From positions 1 through 20,675 of the IMG/VR virus record IMGVR_UViG_3300010160_000287: a stretch of DNA of 20,675 bases; one strand, written 5' to 3'. The stretch comes from a virus. Made by a program: the position numbers and the translations under genes. Below are positions 1,930 to 15,853 of the stretch, in pieces (position 1 is the stretch's first letter; the number at the start of each line of letters is the position of its first letter). The notes under the pieces are model-generated. The model had not been told where the DNA came from and did no database searches. It saw only the letters and a program-made list of their open reading frames with translations.

Positions 1930-2634
1930 TTAAACACGACTTCTCAGCGCAATAAGCTCCAGCACATTAGGATCATTTTCCTGACCCTTTGCTGGTGAGT
2001 ACAGCGCTCTGTATCTTTCCTCTGCTTGCGGTCTTGGCTCGCACAAGTAGTACACCGCAAGAGACTTGCGTGCAAAGTCTTCTGGGCATTGGACAGGTCG
2101 TGAGAGTCCATGTAGTGAGTTTGTTGTGTCAAACAAAACAGCACGATTGAATTTAGGCATCACTTCTTTTACGAGGTTGGATGGCTCGCTCCACATCCCT
2201 AAGTGACCGCCAAAGTCTTTGTGCCAGTCTGGTGTCAGATACACGATTAGATTTAACCGTCTCTCAAGCAGTAGCTTAGGGTGTATGGAGTAGTCCAGAT
2301 GCGGGTTGAGCTTTCCCCCAGAGATGTGCCTGTGCATACCAGCACCATGAAGACCAGCGTCAGCGTAGAGCGTGCAGCCAGTTAAGTGAACAAGGTGCTG
2401 CACAAAGTCAGGAGACACAAGGTGCTGCATTGCTTTATAAATACTGGCTGGGAAAGCACCCCAATGATTCATCGTTGACTTGTGCTCAAGTGCGTTGTTG
2501 TAATGCACCCAGAAGTCTTGTACCTTGTCAAAGTCTTGAGATATTTGCAGAGCGAGTTGTGGTGGAAAGAAGTCATCAATAACCAAGTGCTTGAACGGGT
2601 GCTCGGACTGCCAAGCGAATGTGTGTGTGTTCAT
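1930..2634 (-). CDS. 2-oxoglutarate/Fe(II)-dependent oxygenase
   Basis: A 234-residue protein of the non-haem Fe(II)/2-oxoglutarate dioxygenase superfamily, prolyl-4-hydroxylase-like. The facial triad is visible: HxD at H112 and D114 (context NPHLDY) and the distal histidine H175 (context NSLHGLS). R189 in RKSLAVYYL is placed to bind the 2-oxoglutarate C5 carboxylate. The N-terminal FKHLVIDDFFPP segment is typical of this group. The strand after the HxD (LNLIVYLTPDW) and the GGHLGMW turn match the jelly-roll core. Such enzymes hydroxylate protein side chains, nucleobases or small molecules; the substrate cannot be read from the sequence. Its ATG overlaps the upstream gene's stop (ATGA), so it is translationally coupled. 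It is an accessory enzyme rather than a structural part. Confidence 0.9.
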   Translation of the reverse strand: MNTHTFAWQSEHPFKHLVIDDFFPPQLALQISQDFDKVQDFWVHYNNALEHKSTMNHWGAFPASIYKAMQHLVSPDFVQHLVHLTGCTLYADAGLHGAGMHRHISGGKLNPHLDYSIHPKLLLERRLNLIVYLTPDWHKDFGGHLGMWSEPSNLVKEVMPKFNRAVLFDTTNSLHGLSRPVQCPEDFARKSLAVYYLCEPRPQAEERYRALYSPAKGQENDPNVLELIALRSRV

Positions 2635-8248: not shown

Positions 8249-8368
8249 ATGGAAAACACACAAGAATTTTGGATGCTGCTACTTATTGCGTTGGCTCAAC
8301 GGGTCTACGAGTTGGAGCAGAGATTAGAACAAATAGAACAAGGACAAGAATGCAAGCCGAACAAATAG
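8249..8368 (+). CDS. Possible 39-aa helical peptide
   Basis: A short ORF beginning 5 bases after the terminator's T-tract. It encodes a hydrophobic start (FWMLLLIALAQ) and a Glu/Gln-rich helical tail (RVYELEQRLEQIEQGQE). It overlaps the primase start by 19 bp, and the primase ribosome site lies inside it, so its translation could couple to the primase. It has no Shine-Dalgarno element of its own. The coding status is uncertain. Confidence 0.35.
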   Translation: MENTQEFWMLLLIALAQRVYELEQRLEQIEQGQECKPNK

Positions 8369-10383
8369 CGCAAGCGCTTGGCAACGCAAAGAAGGTGAAC
8401 GGGCAATGGATGGCGAGCTGTCCTGTCAGCAGTCACGGGCAGGGTAACGGGGACAGAAATCCAAGTCTTTGTGTATCGGAGACAGACGAAGGCAAGCCGT
8501 TGTTTAAGTGCTTTAGTGGGTGCTCTCAGGACGAGGTGTTCCACGCAATCAAAGACTACGGGTTGCTGAAAGACCTACCAAACCCGATGGACTTCTTGAC
8601 GCAGATCAAACCGTTACCGAAACCGCAAGAACCTGTGTTGGAGCAGGAGTGGCATTACACAGATGAAGACGGCATCACCCAGCACATAAAACAACGCTAC
8701 AAGACCTTTGACTCCAAAGGAAAGACATACAAGCAGTACAGGGTGGACGAGAACGGCAGACGGCACGCATCAATGACGGGTGCGAACATAGTCCCGTACA
8801 ACTTGCCAGAAGTTGAGTACGCAAGAAAGACAGGCAGGACTGTCTTCTTGTGCGAAGGCGAGAAGGCTGCCGACGCTCTCAAGTCTTTAGGTGTGGTGGC
8901 AACCTGCACGCACAACGGTGCAAGCAACTTCCCCGAAGATGTAGTCAAGCACCTAGTCGGACTGACTATTGCGATAGTCCCAGACAACGATCTGGTCGGC
9001 TGGGAGTACGCAAGGAAAGCAGTTGCAGCGCTCAAGTCGGTTACAAAAAGTATCCGAGTGGTTGACCTTGGGTTACAGGAGATAAAAGAAGACGCATACG
9101 AGTTTGTCCATAAGTATGGCGGTGACAAGGACAGGCTGGTTGACCTGACAAAGGCAACGCAAGCAGTCATAAGTGAACTGGATGTAACGACTCCTGCAAG
9201 ATTGATTGGCGTTGCTGAGACACCAGTAATAGAAGAGTTGGAGCTGCCACAAGCACCACTACAACGCGAAGGATTCAAGCTCGAAGCGTGGGACAGCATT
9301 GAGGACGAACCAGTTGAGTGGCTCATTCAAGGAGTCATACCGCAACGATCATTCGTTGCCTTATACGCACCGCCAGCTTCGTTTAAGAGCTTCGTCGCAC
9401 TCGACATTGCGGAGTGCATCGCAACGGGAAGAGCATTCCTTGGCAACCAGATTACCAGACGCGGTGCAGTCCTGTACATCGCAGGTGAGGGTCATGGCGG
9501 TATCGGGTCACGCATTAAGGCTTTGAAGACGCATCACAAGACACCAGTTGGAGCGCCTGTTTACTTCTTGCGCAGACAAGTCAACCTTCGGTCAAGTAAG
9601 ACAGACCTCCAAGACTTGGTGGCAGCCATTGACGACCTCAAAGCAATCAACGAGATCAACTTTGAGTTGATCATCATCGATACCTTAGCTAGAGCGTTTG
9701 GCGGTGGTAACGAGAACGCATCAGAGGATATGGGTGCATTCATTACGGCTGCTGGCGCTATACAAGGACGGTATACCTGTGGCTTGCTGGTAGTCCATCA
9801 CGCTGGTAAGGACGCGACCAAGGGACTGCGCGGTCACTCTTCCCTGCTTGGCGCAGTAGACACCGAGCTGGAGATTATCAGGATCGAAGGCGCTCAACCG
9901 CCAAAAGGAATACTGCACATCTCCAAGCAGAAGGACGGTGTGGACGGGCAACGCATTGGATTCAAGATGATTGAGGTCAGCTCCAGCAGACTCAATGTCG
10001 CTGACACATCCAGTCTGGCGGTAGAACCTGACAAGGAGATGGACACATCGGTCAAGCAGAAGGTAAAACAAAACCCTCCAGACGCTACTGGAAATGGAAA
10101 GAATCAAAGGCTCGCAATGGAATGCTTGTATGAGGTCGTTGCCGAAAAAGGGTTCATGCGCGACTCAATAAAGTGCGTTGGGATTGGCTATTGGGAGGAA
10201 AGATTTAGGCAGAAAAAGGGAAATAACATCGCCAAAAAGTCAGTTGATAAGGCATGGAGGGAAGTGCAAGAGGATTTGGTTGATTACAAAAAAGTAGTAA
10301 TAAATCGTGACATATGCTGGATCGTATATGAGGACAAAAACGCTTCAGAATACGAAAAAGAGGAGGAGTATTCAGATGCTTAG
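8350..10383 (+). CDS. Bifunctional primase-helicase (TOPRIM + RecA-like)
   Basis: A 677-residue replication protein. Residues 20-62 carry a zinc-binding set (C24, H29, C54, C58; FKCFSGCSQ), as in DnaG- and gp4-type primases. Residues 163-235 form a TOPRIM domain with E169 in LCEGEKAAD and the DxD pair D212 and D214 in VPDNDLVG. Residues 310-540 form a RecA-like helicase domain: a degenerate Walker A at 340-347 (APPASFKS, with K346), Walker B ending at D444 (LIIIDTLARAF) and a VVHHAGKD sensor segment (481-488). It would unwind DNA and lay primers at the fork. The ATG at 8350 is preferred to an upstream in-frame start at 8269 because of AAGGA just before it and because the zinc domain begins there. 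The C-terminus (540-677) is helical, lysine-rich and ends in acidic runs. Confidence 0.9.
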   Translation: MQAEQIAQALGNAKKVNGQWMASCPVSSHGQGNGDRNPSLCVSETDEGKPLFKCFSGCSQDEVFHAIKDYGLLKDLPNPMDFLTQIKPLPKPQEPVLEQEWHYTDEDGITQHIKQRYKTFDSKGKTYKQYRVDENGRRHASMTGANIVPYNLPEVEYARKTGRTVFLCEGEKAADALKSLGVVATCTHNGASNFPEDVVKHLVGLTIAIVPDNDLVGWEYARKAVAALKSVTKSIRVVDLGLQEIKEDAYEFVHKYGGDKDRLVDLTKATQAVISELDVTTPARLIGVAETPVIEELELPQAPLQREGFKLEAWDSIEDEPVEWLIQGVIPQRSFVALYAPPASFKSFVALDIAECIATGRAFLGNQITRRGAVLYIAGEGHGGIGSRIKALKTHHKTPVGAPVYFLRRQVNLRSSKTDLQDLVAAIDDLKAINEINFELIIIDTLARAFGGGNENASEDMGAFITAAGAIQGRYTCGLLVVHHAGKDATKGLRGHSSLLGAVDTELEIIRIEGAQPPKGILHISKQKDGVDGQRIGFKMIEVSSSRLNVADTSSLAVEPDKEMDTSVKQKVKQNPPDATGNGKNQRLAMECLYEVVAEKGFMRDSIKCVGIGYWEERFRQKKGNNIAKKSVDKAWREVQEDLVDYKKVVINRDICWIVYEDKNASEYEKEEEYSDA

Positions 10384-10519
10384 GGGTAGAGACGAATGGA
10401 GACGAATGGTGACAAATGGAAAGCCATTCGTATCCCATTTGTTGCTTGATTTGGAGACGACAAATGGATGGATGTCTAGAAGACATCCATTCGTCGTCGC
10501 CAGCAAATGTCGCCATTGA
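10376..10519 (+). CDS. Possible 47-aa basic protein spanning the repeat cluster
   Basis: An ORF of 47 codons beginning MLRGRDEWRRMVTNGKP and overlapping the primase end by 8 bp. A very strong Shine-Dalgarno run (AGGAGGAG) lies 7 bases before its ATG, although the same bases encode three Glu codons of the primase. The protein is basic and contains related segments, TNGKPFV and TNGW...RHPFVV, because the DNA underneath is made of repeats. It could be a genuine small gene or a chance frame through a structured DNA element. Confidence 0.4.
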   Translation: MLRGRDEWRRMVTNGKPFVSHLLLDLETTNGWMSRRHPFVVASKCRH

Positions 10520-10521: not shown

Positions 10522-10542
10522 ATTTTTTAGTTGGAGTTGTAT

Positions 10543-11232
10543 ATGGTTAAAAAGAGTTTGAGTAAAGTGCTTGGTGGTCTAAAACAACCAGAATTCCCTA
10601 TGAATACTTTTGAGGTATTTATGAATTCGAGGTTAGTTGAGCTGTCTGTGGTGAAAAGGGAGCACGAAAAGCGTTGGGGCATCAATCGCTTGATCGAGCT
10701 GGTGGACTCGGAATTTCGGATCAAGGTGTGGCGACAGGCTGAGAGAGTGTTCGAGGCTTCGGTGTCCAGAGATGAGGTCAAGCTGGACAGAGCTGTCGCA
10801 GGAATGATCAAGGCTTATGCAGCGCTGGAGACTTGGGCGGTCGAGAACGGTGTGTCGGAGATGCCAGCGATAGTTGCAGTCGAACATGAGATGCAGGACG
10901 GGTCGGTGATGGTGGTCGTTGGTACACATCACGACGCGACGCTTTACCAGCAGTTTAGACCCGATGTTGCCAATCGTCACATCTGGACGATGGAAGAGCT
11001 GGAGTTGATCATGGACTCGCCAGTCATCAAGGACACGATGAAGATCAAGTCGTTGATGCCTTGTGCTGCACTTGTTAGGCTGGACAAGGATGCGAAGGAG
11101 TTTCCACTTGGCGGTGCGACAGGCTTTGATGATGTCAAGTCGGACGAGCTGGAGGCTTCGTCGTTGCCAAAGGTGTTCGACACCAGCAAGATAGGCAAAA
11201 ATAGGGCTAATCGGGCTTTGGAGGAGATTTAG
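10543..11232 (+). CDS. Hypothetical phage protein, 229 aa
   Basis: A 229-residue protein of unknown function. Its N-terminal third is helical and charged (LVELSVVKREHEKRWGINRLIELVD), its centre has a beta-like segment (PAIVAVEHEMQDGSVMVVVGTHHDATLY) and its tail is polar and basic (KIGKNRANRALEEI). The ATG at 10543 is chosen because TTGGAG stands 6 bases upstream; a TTG 4 codons earlier is less likely. It sits between the primase and the small terminase gene, so it may belong to replication or to the replication-packaging switch. No catalytic triad, HTH or zinc motif was found. Confidence 0.8.
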   Translation: MVKKSLSKVLGGLKQPEFPMNTFEVFMNSRLVELSVVKREHEKRWGINRLIELVDSEFRIKVWRQAERVFEASVSRDEVKLDRAVAGMIKAYAALETWAVENGVSEMPAIVAVEHEMQDGSVMVVVGTHHDATLYQQFRPDVANRHIWTMEELELIMDSPVIKDTMKIKSLMPCAALVRLDKDAKEFPLGGATGFDDVKSDELEASSLPKVFDTSKIGKNRANRALEEI

Positions 11233-11289: not shown

Positions 11290-11730
11290 ATGGCTGGTAG
11301 ACCAAAACGCAAGTCGGACTTGGCTGCGCTTGATTCGTTGCCGAAGGAACATATCGTCGCAATGCTTGAGGCTGGGCAGCCGATTGCACGCATCTGTTAC
11401 GCGCTCGGAGTTGGTCGAGTTGCACTCGAAGATTGGCTGTCAAAACAGGAGAATGAAGGTCTCGCCTCGCGTGCGCGTGCGAAGGCTGCGGACGACATGG
11501 TAGCAGAAAGCATACTAATTGCTGACGAAACCGATGTCGAAGAGGTACAAAAGGCTAGATTACGGGTGCAAACGAGGCAATGGGTGGCAGAGCGCTGGAA
11601 TCCTGCCTCATACGCCCAGAATAAGATGCCAAGCGTGCAAGTGAACCTGTCTGGCATGAGGCTGGACGCATTGCGACACATCGAGGTCGTTGAGGACATA
11701 TCCACAGAAAACAGCGAGAAGTTGTCCTAG
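11290..11730 (+). CDS. terS: Terminase small subunit
   Basis: A 146-residue protein of the terminase-small-subunit type. Residues 18-50 make a helix-turn-helix (EHIVAMLEAGQPIARICYALGVGRVALEDWLS) suited to recognising the packaging site. A central Ala/Glu-rich helix (RAKAADDMVAESILIADE) and the LRVQTRQWVAERWNP segment are typical of the oligomerisation region in the Sf6/P22-type small subunits. The C-terminal tail is acidic and would contact the large subunit. A strong GGAGGG element precedes the ATG. It is followed by a 306-bp non-coding gap and then the large subunit, rather than overlapping it. It should form a ring that selects phage DNA for packaging. Confidence 0.85.
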   Translation: MAGRPKRKSDLAALDSLPKEHIVAMLEAGQPIARICYALGVGRVALEDWLSKQENEGLASRARAKAADDMVAESILIADETDVEEVQKARLRVQTRQWVAERWNPASYAQNKMPSVQVNLSGMRLDALRHIEVVEDISTENSEKLS

Positions 11731-11794
11731 TTGTCCACAGTTGCGTGGAAACTGGCGAAGTTATGCACAAAACACCCGTCAAACCTGTGGATAA
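11698..11794. other. DnaA-box-like nonamer cluster, candidate origin
   Basis: Four nonamers resemble the bacterial DnaA box TTATCCACA. One is perfect on the minus strand (TGTGGATAA, 11786-11794). Three differ by one base: ATATCCACA 11698-11706 (inside the TerS end), TTGTCCACA 11731-11739 and TTATGCACA 11761-11769. An AT-rich stretch follows at 11791-11830. The clustering suggests DnaA-dependent replication initiation; this is inference from spacing and consensus. Confidence 0.5.
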
Positions 11795-12036
11795 CAGCAA
11801 AATAACTTTACATAATGGACATAGTATAAAGTAGGTGTAGAGATTAGTATTCGTTTCTGCTTGTTTTCTGCTTGTTTTCTGCTGACAGATTCGGGTTTAC
11901 CCCCCCCTTCGCTTGGCGCGACGGGTGGCGCTGAAACTGCACCCCGACAGTTACCGACCTAACACCCCCCCACTACCCCTACCCACAGCACCACTCAACC
12001 CTAAAAAAATAAAAAAAATCAAGGCACAATCCTGAC
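11731..12036. other. Non-coding gap between terS and terL
   Basis: This 306-bp gap holds no convincing gene. In order it contains three of the DnaA-box-like nonamers, an AT-rich stretch, three tandem 11-bp repeats (11854-11886), an 8-base C run at 11900-11907, C-rich runs that are G-rich on the minus strand (11965-11984), and an A-rich leader before terL. In other terminase operons the two genes usually touch. A packaging (pac or cos) signal could also lie here. Confidence 0.6.
11854..11886 (+). repeat. Three tandem 11-bp repeats
   Basis: TTTCTGCTTGT occurs at 11854-11864 and 11865-11875, and a third copy at 11876-11886 ends GAC instead of TGT. Head-to-tail 11-bp spacing keeps the copies on one helical face, as for iterons or terminase-binding sites. 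Confidence 0.75.
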
Positions 12037-13536
12037 ATGACGACAGAATCAACTGCACCAGTACAAAAGAAACTACACCCACAGGTCAAGGAGACGCTAG
12101 ACCGTATCCACGACAAGCGACAAGACGAACTCAGCAAGAATCCCTTTGTTGCGTTCACCATCCGCTACAAGAACAACCCCACGCTCTTCGTGAAGGAAGT
12201 CTTAAAAGCCAACCCCGACACTTGGCAAGAGACCTTCCTCACGCACATCGCAAAGGGCAACCGCAGAATATCTGTAAGGTCAGGGCATGGCGTAGGAAAG
12301 TCCACAGCAGCGAGCTGGGCGATCATCTGGTACTTACTGCTCAGATACCCCGTCAAGGTCGTCGTCACCGCCCCCACATCCAGCCAACTCTACGACGCAC
12401 TCTTTGCGGAACTAAAGCGCTGGGTGAAGGAACTGCCTGAGACCTTGCGGGATATGCTCGAAGTCAAGCAGGACAGGATCGAGGTCAAGGAAGCAGCGTC
12501 CGAGGCTTTCGTCTCAGCCAGAACCAGTAGGGCAGAGCAGCCAGAAGCCCTGCAAGGTGTCCACTCAGAGAATGTGATGCTGGTAGCTGACGAGGCATCT
12601 GGCATCCCAGAGGCAGTCTTTGAGGCTGCTGCGGGGTCTATGTCTGGACACAATGCCGTGACCCTTTTGCTGGGCAACCCTGTCAGAAGTTCGGGATTCT
12701 TTTACGACACCCAGAACCGACTGGCGAACGATTGGGTGACGATGAAGGTGAGCTGCAAAGACTCGCCAAGGGTCTCAGATGCCTATGTCGAAGAGATGAA
12801 GGCGCGGTACGGGGAAGAGTCGAATGCCTACCGAATAAGGGTACTAGGTGAGTTTCCAAGGTCAGACGACGACACCATCATCCCGATGGAACTCTTGGAA
12901 CTGGCAAAGCACCGAGATGTCGAGACCTCCCAGCACGCAAAACTGATCTGGGGCTTGGATGTCGCACGCTTTGGTGGCGACAGGTCTGCACTCTCGAAGA
13001 GACAGGGCAACGCATTGATTGAACCCACGAAGACTTGGAAAAACCTAGACTTGATGCAACTCACAGGCGCAGTAGTCGCGGAGTGGGAAGCCCTACCGCC
13101 AAGCCAGAGACCGCATGAGATCATGGTGGACTCGATTGGACTTGGCGCTGGCGTAGTAGACCGTCTCAGAGAACTTGGGTTGCCAGCCCGTGGCATCAAT
13201 GTCTCAGAGTCCCCCGCGATGGGTACGACTTATCGAAATCTAAGGGCAGAGCTTTGGTACAAGGCAAAGGCGTGGTTTGAGGCGCGTGACTGCCGTATCC
13301 CAAATGACGAGGAGCTGGTGGCTGAACTGGCGACGGTGAGGTACTTCTTTAGCAGCGCGGGGAAGATGCAGGTCGAGGGCAAGGACGACATTAGAAAGCG
13401 CGGTCTGAGGTCACCTGATAAGGCAGACTCGTTTGTATTGACCTTTGCGTCCGACGCTGCCGTCTCGATGTTTGGTGCGAATACGAGTCAGAAGTGGTCG
13501 CAACCGTTGAAAAGAAACCTGTCAAGGGTTGCATAA
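12037..13536 (+). CDS. terL: Terminase large subunit (packaging ATPase-nuclease)
   Basis: A 499-residue TerL. The ATPase domain has Walker A at residues 82-90 (SGHGVGKST) and Walker B ending in D185-E186 (VMLVADEAS). The C-terminal RNase H-like nuclease has D308 in GLDVARFGGDR, D365 in MVDSIGLGAG and a third acidic residue in RSPDKADSF near residue 455. Length and motif order match the P22/Sf6-type headful-packaging group, which would predict circularly permuted genomes. It translocates DNA into the prohead and cuts the concatemer. Only a weak AAGG element lies upstream, and an A-rich leader precedes the gene. Confidence 0.95.
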   Translation: MTTESTAPVQKKLHPQVKETLDRIHDKRQDELSKNPFVAFTIRYKNNPTLFVKEVLKANPDTWQETFLTHIAKGNRRISVRSGHGVGKSTAASWAIIWYLLLRYPVKVVVTAPTSSQLYDALFAELKRWVKELPETLRDMLEVKQDRIEVKEAASEAFVSARTSRAEQPEALQGVHSENVMLVADEASGIPEAVFEAAAGSMSGHNAVTLLLGNPVRSSGFFYDTQNRLANDWVTMKVSCKDSPRVSDAYVEEMKARYGEESNAYRIRVLGEFPRSDDDTIIPMELLELAKHRDVETSQHAKLIWGLDVARFGGDRSALSKRQGNALIEPTKTWKNLDLMQLTGAVVAEWEALPPSQRPHEIMVDSIGLGAGVVDRLRELGLPARGINVSESPAMGTTYRNLRAELWYKAKAWFEARDCRIPNDEELVAELATVRYFFSSAGKMQVEGKDDIRKRGLRSPDKADSFVLTFASDAAVSMFGANTSQKWSQPLKRNLSRVA

Positions 13537-14659: not shown

Positions 14660-15345
14660 TCCCAATCTGCATTTCGACGGTCAACGGCAAAGGTTTGCCA
14701 GTTCTGCTCGAATCCATTAAGCAATACGCACCAGAGGCGTTTGTTTACTTGCGTGGCACAGAGAGAGTCGTCTCTGGGTACAAAAACGCAAGGCTTATCT
14801 TTGGCGAACCCCGTAACTTTGGCGACGATTACAACGAAGTAATCGACGACGCTCTGAAGTACGCACAGGCTTGCATCGTCTGCAATGACGATGTGGTGCT
14901 GACACCGAACTCTTACCAGCGACTCTTAGAAGATGTCGAGGTGATCCGCGAGCTGGAGGTCAATGTCGGCTGGGTGGGCGCAAGAAGTGACTATGTAAGA
15001 CCTGCGCAGAACATTCGCTACAACCCCGACGGTGATCACCTAGAGATGTGCAGATTTAAGTCCGAGCAGTTCATTCGTCACGCCAACAACATTGCACCGA
15101 TCTTTGCGTACATCTCTAGAGACGCATGGCATCACGGCAGATTCCCCCCACTTAATTGGTTCTCAGACGATGTGAGCTGCGCAGACCTCAACAATCAGGG
15201 CTACCAGCACTTTGTCTCTAGCGCCTATGTCCATCATGTCGGCAGCCAGACAACGGGCGACGACTCGAAGCAATTAGTTGCAGCGTCTGTGCCTTGGGTC
15301 AAGGAGCACCGTCCTCAGTATGTCAAGCACTTCTTTGGTTCTTAA
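14656..15345 (+). CDS. Glycosyltransferase-like protein (GT-A fold)
   Basis: A 229-residue protein whose N-terminus reads as a first Rossmann-like strand (MIPICISTVNGKGLPVLLESI), a typical start of family-2-like glycosyltransferases. An acidic metal and sugar-nucleotide motif follows (ACIVCNDDVVLTPNSY, with D-D). The later segment NWFSDDVSCADLNNQGYQHF and HHVGSQT complete the pattern seen in this fold. The GTG at 14656 is chosen because it overlaps the previous stop (GTGA); an in-frame ATG at 14587 would overlap the preceding gene for 70 bp. It probably glycosylates a virion protein or host component; the substrate is unknown. Confidence 0.8.
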   Translation: MIPICISTVNGKGLPVLLESIKQYAPEAFVYLRGTERVVSGYKNARLIFGEPRNFGDDYNEVIDDALKYAQACIVCNDDVVLTPNSYQRLLEDVEVIRELEVNVGWVGARSDYVRPAQNIRYNPDGDHLEMCRFKSEQFIRHANNIAPIFAYISRDAWHHGRFPPLNWFSDDVSCADLNNQGYQHFVSSAYVHHVGSQTTGDDSKQLVAASVPWVKEHRPQYVKHFFGS

Positions 15346-15853
15346 TCTAGGCTCTGGCAAGGACTTTCGAGACGACTGCATCAACGCAGATATTCAGTTG
15401 CGCGTCAAGCACGACTGGTTACTCGATATTTGCAATGTGCCTTGGGGCGACACCATCTCCACAAGGCTTGGTGACTTCGAGGTGCAGCCAGAGATGTTTG
15501 ACGCTATTCTTGCAAATGATGTGCTCGAACATTTGCCTGATCTGGTCGGTGCAATGACGAGCTGTAAGAAGTTATTGAAAACTGGTGGCGAGATGCGCAT
15601 CCATGTGCCTTATGACTTGAGCTATGGCGCGTGGCAAGACCCGACTCATGTGCGTGCATTCAACGAGCATTCGTGGCATTACTACACCGACTGGCATTGG
15701 CATCTTGGGTGGGAAGACAGGTTTTATGTGACTCACTTGGAATTTCGTTTCAATCCAGTCGCACAAGACCTAAAATTAACGCAAGAAGAACTGTTAAGGA
15801 CTCCGCGTGCCGTGGACTCCATGTATGTCGTATTGCAAAAGGGCAAAAAATGA
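15320..15853 (+). CDS. Class I SAM-dependent methyltransferase
   Basis: A 177-residue protein. Motif I is LNLGSGKDF near residues 8-16, the acidic ribose-binding residue falls in NADIQ, and the FDAILANDVLEHLPDL segment is the usual motif IV with the LEHL signature. It uses S-adenosylmethionine. The target cannot be deduced; sugars, small molecules or proteins are all possible. It starts at 15320, inside the last 26 bp of the glycosyltransferase-like gene, with AAGGAG 13 bases upstream (a little far). An earlier in-frame ATG at 15278 adds a non-conserved extension. Its stop overlaps the portal ATG. It may act with the glycosyltransferase to decorate a product. Confidence 0.85.
   Translation: MSSTSLVLNLGSGKDFRDDCINADIQLRVKHDWLLDICNVPWGDTISTRLGDFEVQPEMFDAILANDVLEHLPDLVGAMTSCKKLLKTGGEMRIHVPYDLSYGAWQDPTHVRAFNEHSWHYYTDWHWHLGWEDRFYVTHLEFRFNPVAQDLKLTQEELLRTPRAVDSMYVVLQKGKK

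Follow-up and report, generated by a model that had tools for sequence, protein, structure and literature searches.

A DnaA-box array next to a dif-like XerC/XerD site between the terminase genes of a freshwater tailed phage: a candidate unit for host-driven replication and resolution

The window, meaning the whole stretch of DNA that was analysed, is an entire virus record of 20,675 bp from a freshwater tailed phage, and we take it to be a fragment because its relatives run to 35-38 kb. It encodes a RuvC-like nuclease, a DUF2800 exonuclease, an AAA_25 primase-helicase, the small (terS) and large (terL) terminase subunits, and a portal and a capsid protein of the SU10 type. The initial annotation had placed terS and terL on either side of the gap studied here, and both calls were correct: terS (11290-11730, plus strand) matches Pfam PF20901 Sf6_terminase at 50 bits as well as phrog_1482, and terL (12037-13536, plus strand) was recognised by Pfam and PHROGs searches. 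The primase-helicase, a phage-encoded part of the replisome, lies at 8269-10383 on the plus strand (PF13481, E 3e-40; phrog_239 and phrog_906). A 233-aa gene of unknown family (10531-11232) sits directly upstream of terS, with homologues recognised by eye at the matching place in loci L127, L151, L169 and L278, and between it and the primase-helicase gene there is a 10-bp tandem repeat, GAGACGAATG, in 3.2 copies (10389-10420). The counterparts of window positions 1930-2634 and 15278-15853 in the complete relative G001 match a 2OG-Fe(II) oxygenase and a methyltransferase domain. Genes around the gap are co-directional in the window and in G001, and three relatives circularise at about 35-37 kb, with end overlaps of 121-127 bp and break points elsewhere than in the terS-terL gap.

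Four DnaA-box-like nonamers, one perfect and three with a single mismatch, had been reported here, and we found all of them inside 97 bp, with these matches to TTATCCACA. R1 (ATATCCACA, 11698-11706), R2 (TTGTCCACA, 11731-11739) and R3 (TTATGCACA, 11761-11769) are on the plus strand and R4 (TTATCCACA, 11786-11794) is on the minus strand; measured against the consensus TTATNCACA, two of the four are perfect. The description of the array as an island between terS and terL holds for most of it, the exception being R1, which falls within the last (3′) part of terS. Shuffling the window with its dinucleotides preserved never gave four boxes with at most one mismatch to TTATCCACA within 97 bp (0/2000), and the looser set, TTATNCACA with up to one mismatch, gave four boxes in 1/2000.

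Related loci were collected by a TerL search, keeping the best 80 of 338 matches, and 35 distinct close sequences from these relatives were aligned for column conservation. Place, order and orientation of the array are kept in close relatives, and the mean majority frequency in the 35 sequences is 0.959 for box columns and 0.858 for spacers (Mann-Whitney p 0.0008, with columns treated as independent though the sequences are related). Setting aside 12 rows gapped at position 9, R1 varies only between A and G at position 1. Position 3 of R2 is A in 18 rows and G in 17, position 5 of R3 is G in 18 rows and C in 17, and A replaces G in two rows of R4; the further departures are one row each at one other position, twice in R2 and once in R3. 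DnaA tolerates A or G at box position 3 and G or C at position 5, and most of the variation thus falls at tolerated positions, which counts for the reading of these nonamers as DnaA boxes. A BLAST search of phages with the 411-bp gap gave chance-level matches only (best E 0.4), as did a 49-bp query of box plus adjacent site against plasmids and phages (best E 0.07 and 0.9).

Beyond R4, after a spacer of 10 bp (11795-11804, no strand assigned), comes an AT-rich stretch, with 69% A+T over 11795-11853 compared with 51% for the window. The stretch is present as the initial annotation had described it. In an origin it could be the unwinding element; its conserved core is a dif-like, candidate XerC/XerD recombination site. 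This core, ACTTTATACTA-TGTCCA-TTATGTAAAGT, occupies 28 bp on the minus strand (11805-11832), with the XerD arm at 11805-11815, the central hexamer TGTCCA at 11816-11821 and the XerC arm at 11822-11832, and its 11-6-11 layout with dif-like arms is that of a dif-type site. A matrix built from 47 chromosomal dif sequences, listed in Table 1 of PMC2731167, scores it at 18.7 bits, the best match on either strand of the window; 500 shuffles reached at most 17.5 bits, with a 99% level of 14.7, so that the excess in the window taken alone is modest. We had considered by eye that this AT-rich palindrome could be a promoter or operator, a reading displaced by the dif match. The site also ranks first by matrix in phage C72C1 (22.5 bits) and, at 19.2-22.1 bits, in 9/9 of the 35-38-kb relatives. 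It is not the top match in Sinorhizobium phage phiM5 (10.1 bits), it is tied and not singled out by the matrix in contig G805 of a wider set (10.7 bits), and no such site was found in the 10.6 kb examined of the 36.5-kb MW202879, which has the closest TerL in GenBank (69%).

Across the TerL set (best 80 of 338), a site of at least 14 bits was found at 71/72 loci, window included, L066 being the one without. This count covers loci whose sequence extends 300 bp or more upstream of terL, 9/80 shorter loci having been dropped, and the scan was made on one strand, with orientation taken from separate matrix scans of both strands. At least three boxes lie within 170 bp at 69/71 site-bearing loci (best 80 of 338), so the conservation of the nonamers, which the initial annotation had proposed checking, is very clear. 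R4 is the best-conserved box, and its distance to the site is fixed: at exactly 10 bp from the site stands TGTGGATAA at 59/71 loci and a near variant of this nonamer at the other 12/71 (best 80 of 338). The central hexamers of the 71 sites (best 80 of 338) are TGTTCA (35), TGTCCA (24), CATTCA (8), CGTCCA (3) and TCTTCA (1), and the phage XerC arms carry ATACAA, ATACTA, ACACTA, ATACGA and similar sequences.

The three tandem 11-bp repeats reported after the AT-rich stretch are real in kind, but the copy number is 2.7 (TTTCTGCTTGT, 11854-11883, plus strand), and they are not conserved: 15/35 distinct close sequences have an unrelated, longer segment there, and among the remaining 20 the extra copy is found in the row of the window only. 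This rules them out as iterons or unwinding repeats. No conserved unwinding element besides the Xer site was found in the aligned close relatives, which counts against an origin. Further on, a hairpin-like stretch recognised by eye, GGGTTTACCCCCCCCTTCG...GCGCGACGGG (11893-11930, plus strand), has 24/38 columns invariant in the 35 distinct close sequences and opens a C-rich tract that reaches about 11998. In or beside this tract, 44-87 bp before terL, 7/80 TerL contigs end (L018, L024, L032, L048, L050, L069 and L077; best 80 of 338), and L134 and L138, coming from the terS side, likewise stop near it; these ends may be a sequencing break or a genome terminus. Other loci (L031, L042, L054, L060, L062, L063 and others, some read through overlapping loci) carry between the Xer site and terL a structured repeat that is absent from the window, with the stem CAA[CG]ACG-CAT-GRGGAYTG ... 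CAGTCCYC-AGY-CGTGTTGG and a tip that varies between copies. We counted 22 distinct units in 20 loci, with covariation seen by eye (GGGGA/TCCCC in 10, GAGGA/TCCTC in 10 and GGGGA/TCCTC in 2), and no Rfam family (six sources) or tRNA (16 loci) was matched; it may be a phage RNA that has not been described before. Rfam likewise gave nothing at the gathering threshold in the window or in five relatives.

A pattern scan of viral contigs matched at least 120 stretches, of which 80 loci were analysed; since the pattern itself predetermines some positions of the arms and the centre, hexamers were counted in the TerL set. Among these 80 of at least 120, three or more boxes lie on the XerD side at 51/59 loci scoring at least 14 and at 5/21 low-score matches. 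A box with at most one mismatch stands 10 bp from the site at 31/59 loci (80 of at least 120 analysed), and 12 of these 31 have a TerL match below 40% identity; the loci have many proteins in common and are not independent lineages, and the relatedness of the sequences makes most of our counts non-independent. The 10-bp geometry is absent at the other 28/59 (80 of at least 120), the exceptions including one group whose boxes lie at a greater distance on either side, another whose box is at 4 bp, and a few box-less loci. Fewer than three boxes were found at 8/59 loci (80 of at least 120): L123, L142, L197 and L191 are among the 28 records in which an initiator was sought, and left out of those were L131, L143 and L150, each of which has two boxes, and L157, which breaks off 59 bp ahead of the matched pattern. 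When other TerL types were examined, the Xer site was again beside the terminase genes, recognised partly by eye. The motif TCAAYRACTTA was also seen on the XerC side in 20/80 loci of this first set (80 of at least 120 analysed).

The 28 hand-chosen records never combine the array with an O-like initiator gene (HTH_36, PF13730). HTH_36 was found in 4/4 box-less records with enough flank (G809, G810, G811 and C72C1) and in 0/23 box-bearing ones; in the fifth box-less record, L191, the flank is too short for a judgement. In G809-G811, the stop codon of the HTH_36 gene is 19 bp before the Xer site, at the place where the array would be expected. PHROGs matches to replication-initiation families were weak for G809 and G810 and strong for C72C1, with G811 left out. 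The region of the C72C1 initiator gene (locus L104, 20557-21384) holds three copies of TGTCAGGGG, which by eye belong to longer, similar repeats, and this brings to mind the lambda O gene, a gene that contains an origin.

In a second set, made up of 27 loci whose sites have canonical arms, there are at least three boxes near the site in 0/27 and a homologue of the C72C1-type initiator in 11/27, with HTH_36 over the cut-off in 3/17 contigs and weak in 2 more. A TerL homologue was found at 19/27 loci, where the orientation of the site relative to terL is that of the window in 19/19, and the site is within 437 bp of the TerL match in 17/19. A strict rule of array or own initiator fails in this set, as the sites of L274, L278, L283, L289 and L292 are accompanied by 0-1 box, and HTH_36 does not reach the cut-off in their contigs. 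Neither set contains a record that combines the array with HTH_36 over the cut-off. Four of these five contigs are fragments of 4.6-11.1 kb, and the contig of L274, G818, is 37 kb; the absence of both in G818 argues that the Xer site does not require the array. The exchange of array and initiator gene, which is not a law, is the best evidence that the array may do the job of an initiator. A motif, AATGACTTA or AATGAGTTA, was also noted beyond the XerD arm at 17/27 canonical-arm loci (L274-L300), 15 of them at 17 bp, and is perhaps the site of an accessory factor.

No DNA polymerase A or PolIII alpha was found in 10 contigs, window included, no tyrosine recombinase (PF00589) in 18 contigs, and no partition or recombinase family among the 20 Pfam-scanned proteins of the complete G001. 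The skew inflection expected by the initial annotation was not seen: GC skew is positive on both sides in 9/9 contigs, at +0.12 to +0.19 over the 3.9 kb before the site and +0.05 to +0.08 over the 4 kb after the terL start, a weak test since the genes run one way. A local dip below zero occurs in the C-rich gap in 7/8 contigs measured, and the skew falls elsewhere along some contigs.

The data themselves show the sequences, their spacing and conservation, the co-occurrence of boxes and site, and the exchange with an initiator gene; from these we infer all protein-DNA interactions and functions at this locus, and propose with moderate confidence that it is a host-driven replication and resolution unit, a DnaA origin coupled to an Xer resolution or circularisation site. 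Host DnaA would bind the box array and open the DNA there, the phage primase-helicase and a host polymerase would then copy the genome, and host XerC/XerD would use the neighbouring site, either in the circles so formed or in redundant ends, most likely resolving multimers, or terminally redundant incoming genomes, to monomer circles. The likeness of the site's arms to a host dif, detailed below, counts for this reading. The original suggestion of an origin is partly supported, keeping its conserved boxes and losing its repeats and, by a weak test, its skew signal; the orientation of the boxes relative to the AT-rich side also differs from the E. coli R1 arrangement, which counts against an origin. 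As for the suggested tie between replication and packaging, position at the terminase locus was the sole link found. A more ambitious proposal, that DnaA and XerC/XerD, both taken from the host, work 10 bp from each other at the packaging locus to start replication and to recombine the copies, so that DnaA occupancy would physically gate Xer and hence the DNA supply of the terminase in a widespread group of tailed phages lacking their own integrase and replicative DNA polymerase, is a tentative one, and we consider it rather doubtful as a whole.

The Xer site could instead be an attachment site through which the phage integrates at host dif by means of XerC/XerD, as VGJphi does, with the boxes serving replication or regulation around it. 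We consider this unlikely, although the 0/18 contigs with a tyrosine integrase speak for it, and so do the arms, both of which resemble host dif. In the portion of PMC2731167 that tabulates dif sites, CGCATAA occurs, by our count, in the XerC arm of 20/48, and Rhodoferax ferrireducens alone has ATACGA there (ACTTGATACGATGTATATTATGTTAAGT). When Pseudomonadota genomes were sampled with a dif query of this kind, allowing up to 3 mismatches, 6/398 matched, ACTTTATACGATGTATATTATGTTAAAT being one example, and the six belong to a single family; the core ATACGA-N5-ATTATGT occurs in 55/150 genomes of this host-type family, and the putative hosts are Comamonadaceae. Phage arms come within 1 mismatch of host dif for XerC (G352) and 0 for XerD (G245). 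The phage centre TGTYCA keeps the three XerC-side bases of dif and differs on the XerD side, as VGJphi attP does according to the relevant section of PMC5357621. Three genomes (G429, G437 and G538) have two dif-like sites each with differing centres, TATATA and TTAAGA, ATTGCA and TGTATA, and TATAGA and TTTGTA, perhaps belonging to a second replicon or mobile element.

Against integration, the host-type dif centre is TGTATA in 48/58 matches, with no phage hexamer among the other 10, and none of the 71 phage sites (TerL set, best 80 of 338) has a central hexamer equal to that of host dif, which sets them apart from chromosomal dif. Since the phage centre (TGTYCA in 59/71, best 80 of 338) differs from TGTATA, exchange between phage copies would be favoured over exchange between phage and chromosome. 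The CATTCA centre of 8/71 sites (best 80 of 338) mismatches dif even on the XerC side. A site with a TGTYCA centre was found in 0/399 genomes of the host-type family, and a TerL profile scan of genome contigs gave 15 loci (best identity 63%), none with a dif-like site of at least 14 bits (best 12.4); for these two reasons, resolution or circularisation is favoured over integration. Temperate carriage may occur in unsampled hosts.

The boxes could also be something other than an origin, with DnaA acting as an accessory protein for Xer recombination, the part that ArgR and PepA play at cer, or the array as a regulatory or titration site, and replication starting elsewhere. The fixed distance of 10 bp from the last box to the XerD arm, with the exact TGTGGATAA at 59/71 loci (best 80 of 338), fits such a role, as does the recurrence of a box at 10 bp in 31/59 pattern-set loci, 12 of them with TerL below 40% (80 of at least 120). 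This account seems to us slightly less probable again than integration at dif, as the Xer site is retained in C72C1 and in the canonical-arm phages, where the number of boxes within 180 bp is 0 to 2, and three records have an initiator gene at the array's expected place.

A packaging site, with the nonamers as TerS-binding repeats and the palindrome as a promoter or operator, would suit a location between terS and terL, the 7/80 TerL contigs (best 80 of 338) that end 44-87 bp before terL, and the terminal repeat of phiM5 directly before terL. It is nevertheless improbable: the repeats fit the DnaA consensus in phages whose terminases are quite unlike one another, the dif matrix picks out the palindrome, whose arms resemble host dif down to the unusual XerC arm, and the stop of L134 and L138 near the tract from the terS side means that the contig ends may be a sequencing break. 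A chance cluster, for which we found nothing in favour, is ruled out for practical purposes by the 0/2000 shuffles and by the conservation of at least three boxes at 69/71 site-bearing loci (best 80 of 338).

In the portions of the literature that our search covered, we found neither a bare Xer site in a tailed phage nor a DnaA array tied to such a site. If the proposed replication and resolution unit is real, a phage lifestyle dependent on host DnaA and XerCD would be added to those described, the phage perhaps borrowing DnaA and XerC/XerD from its host for copying and tidying a circular genome. The signature of box, 10 bp and dif-like site could then flag such phages in metagenomes, the dif arms would let their hosts be guessed, and the alternation of a host-run origin with a phage initiator gene would offer a natural swap for testing the role of the array.

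Filamentous phages are described as using host XerCD at dif-like sites, and the same is proposed for tailless phages, some of which have integrases as well, in the sections of PMC5357621 and PMC9966536 that treat integrative mobile elements exploiting Xer (IMEX), and the phages studied here, in which no tyrosine integrase was found, share with CTXphi, VGJphi, TLCphi and NO16 a dif-like site. Unlike IMEX, they are terminase-portal phages of about 35-38 kb with a DnaA array 10 bp away, and no integrated copy was found in the genomes scanned. Gokushovirus prophages have reportedly also been linked to host XerCD at a dif-like site. Among plasmid prophages such as P1, D6 and B83, most of the tailed ones listed in the part of PMC8026635 consulted have their own Cre or Xer recombinases. 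Site-specific resolution together with a plasmid-like origin would meet the same need here, whereas no tyrosine recombinase (0/18 contigs), no partition gene (20 G001 proteins) and no TGTYCA site (0/399 genomes) were found.

Plasmids offer a parallel in cer, an element-borne site for host XerCD with an 8-bp centre, as given in the relevant section of PMC5357621. The likeness lies in host XerCD acting at an element-borne site with an accessory sequence nearby, but the phage sites have a 6-bp centre, dif-like arms, and DnaA boxes in place of ArgR/PepA sites. Another plasmid Xer site that invites this comparison is psi. Phage C72C1 (OQ984150) has an Xer site in its terS-terL gap, with the centre CGTCCA, and no tyrosine integrase, and differs in having no DnaA array and its own O-like initiator gene. 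Bacterial and plasmid origins such as oriC and P1 oriR have clustered DnaA boxes beside an AT-rich stretch, and here too clustered TTATNCACA boxes adjoin one; in contrast to those origins, no conserved 13-mers or iterons were seen, and there is no known initiator gene beside the array, which sits between terminase genes with no change of skew sign. Phage P1 also pairs oriR with lox, and the locus described here would be a similar pairing of origin and recombination site, in which the host supplies both the initiator and the recombinase.
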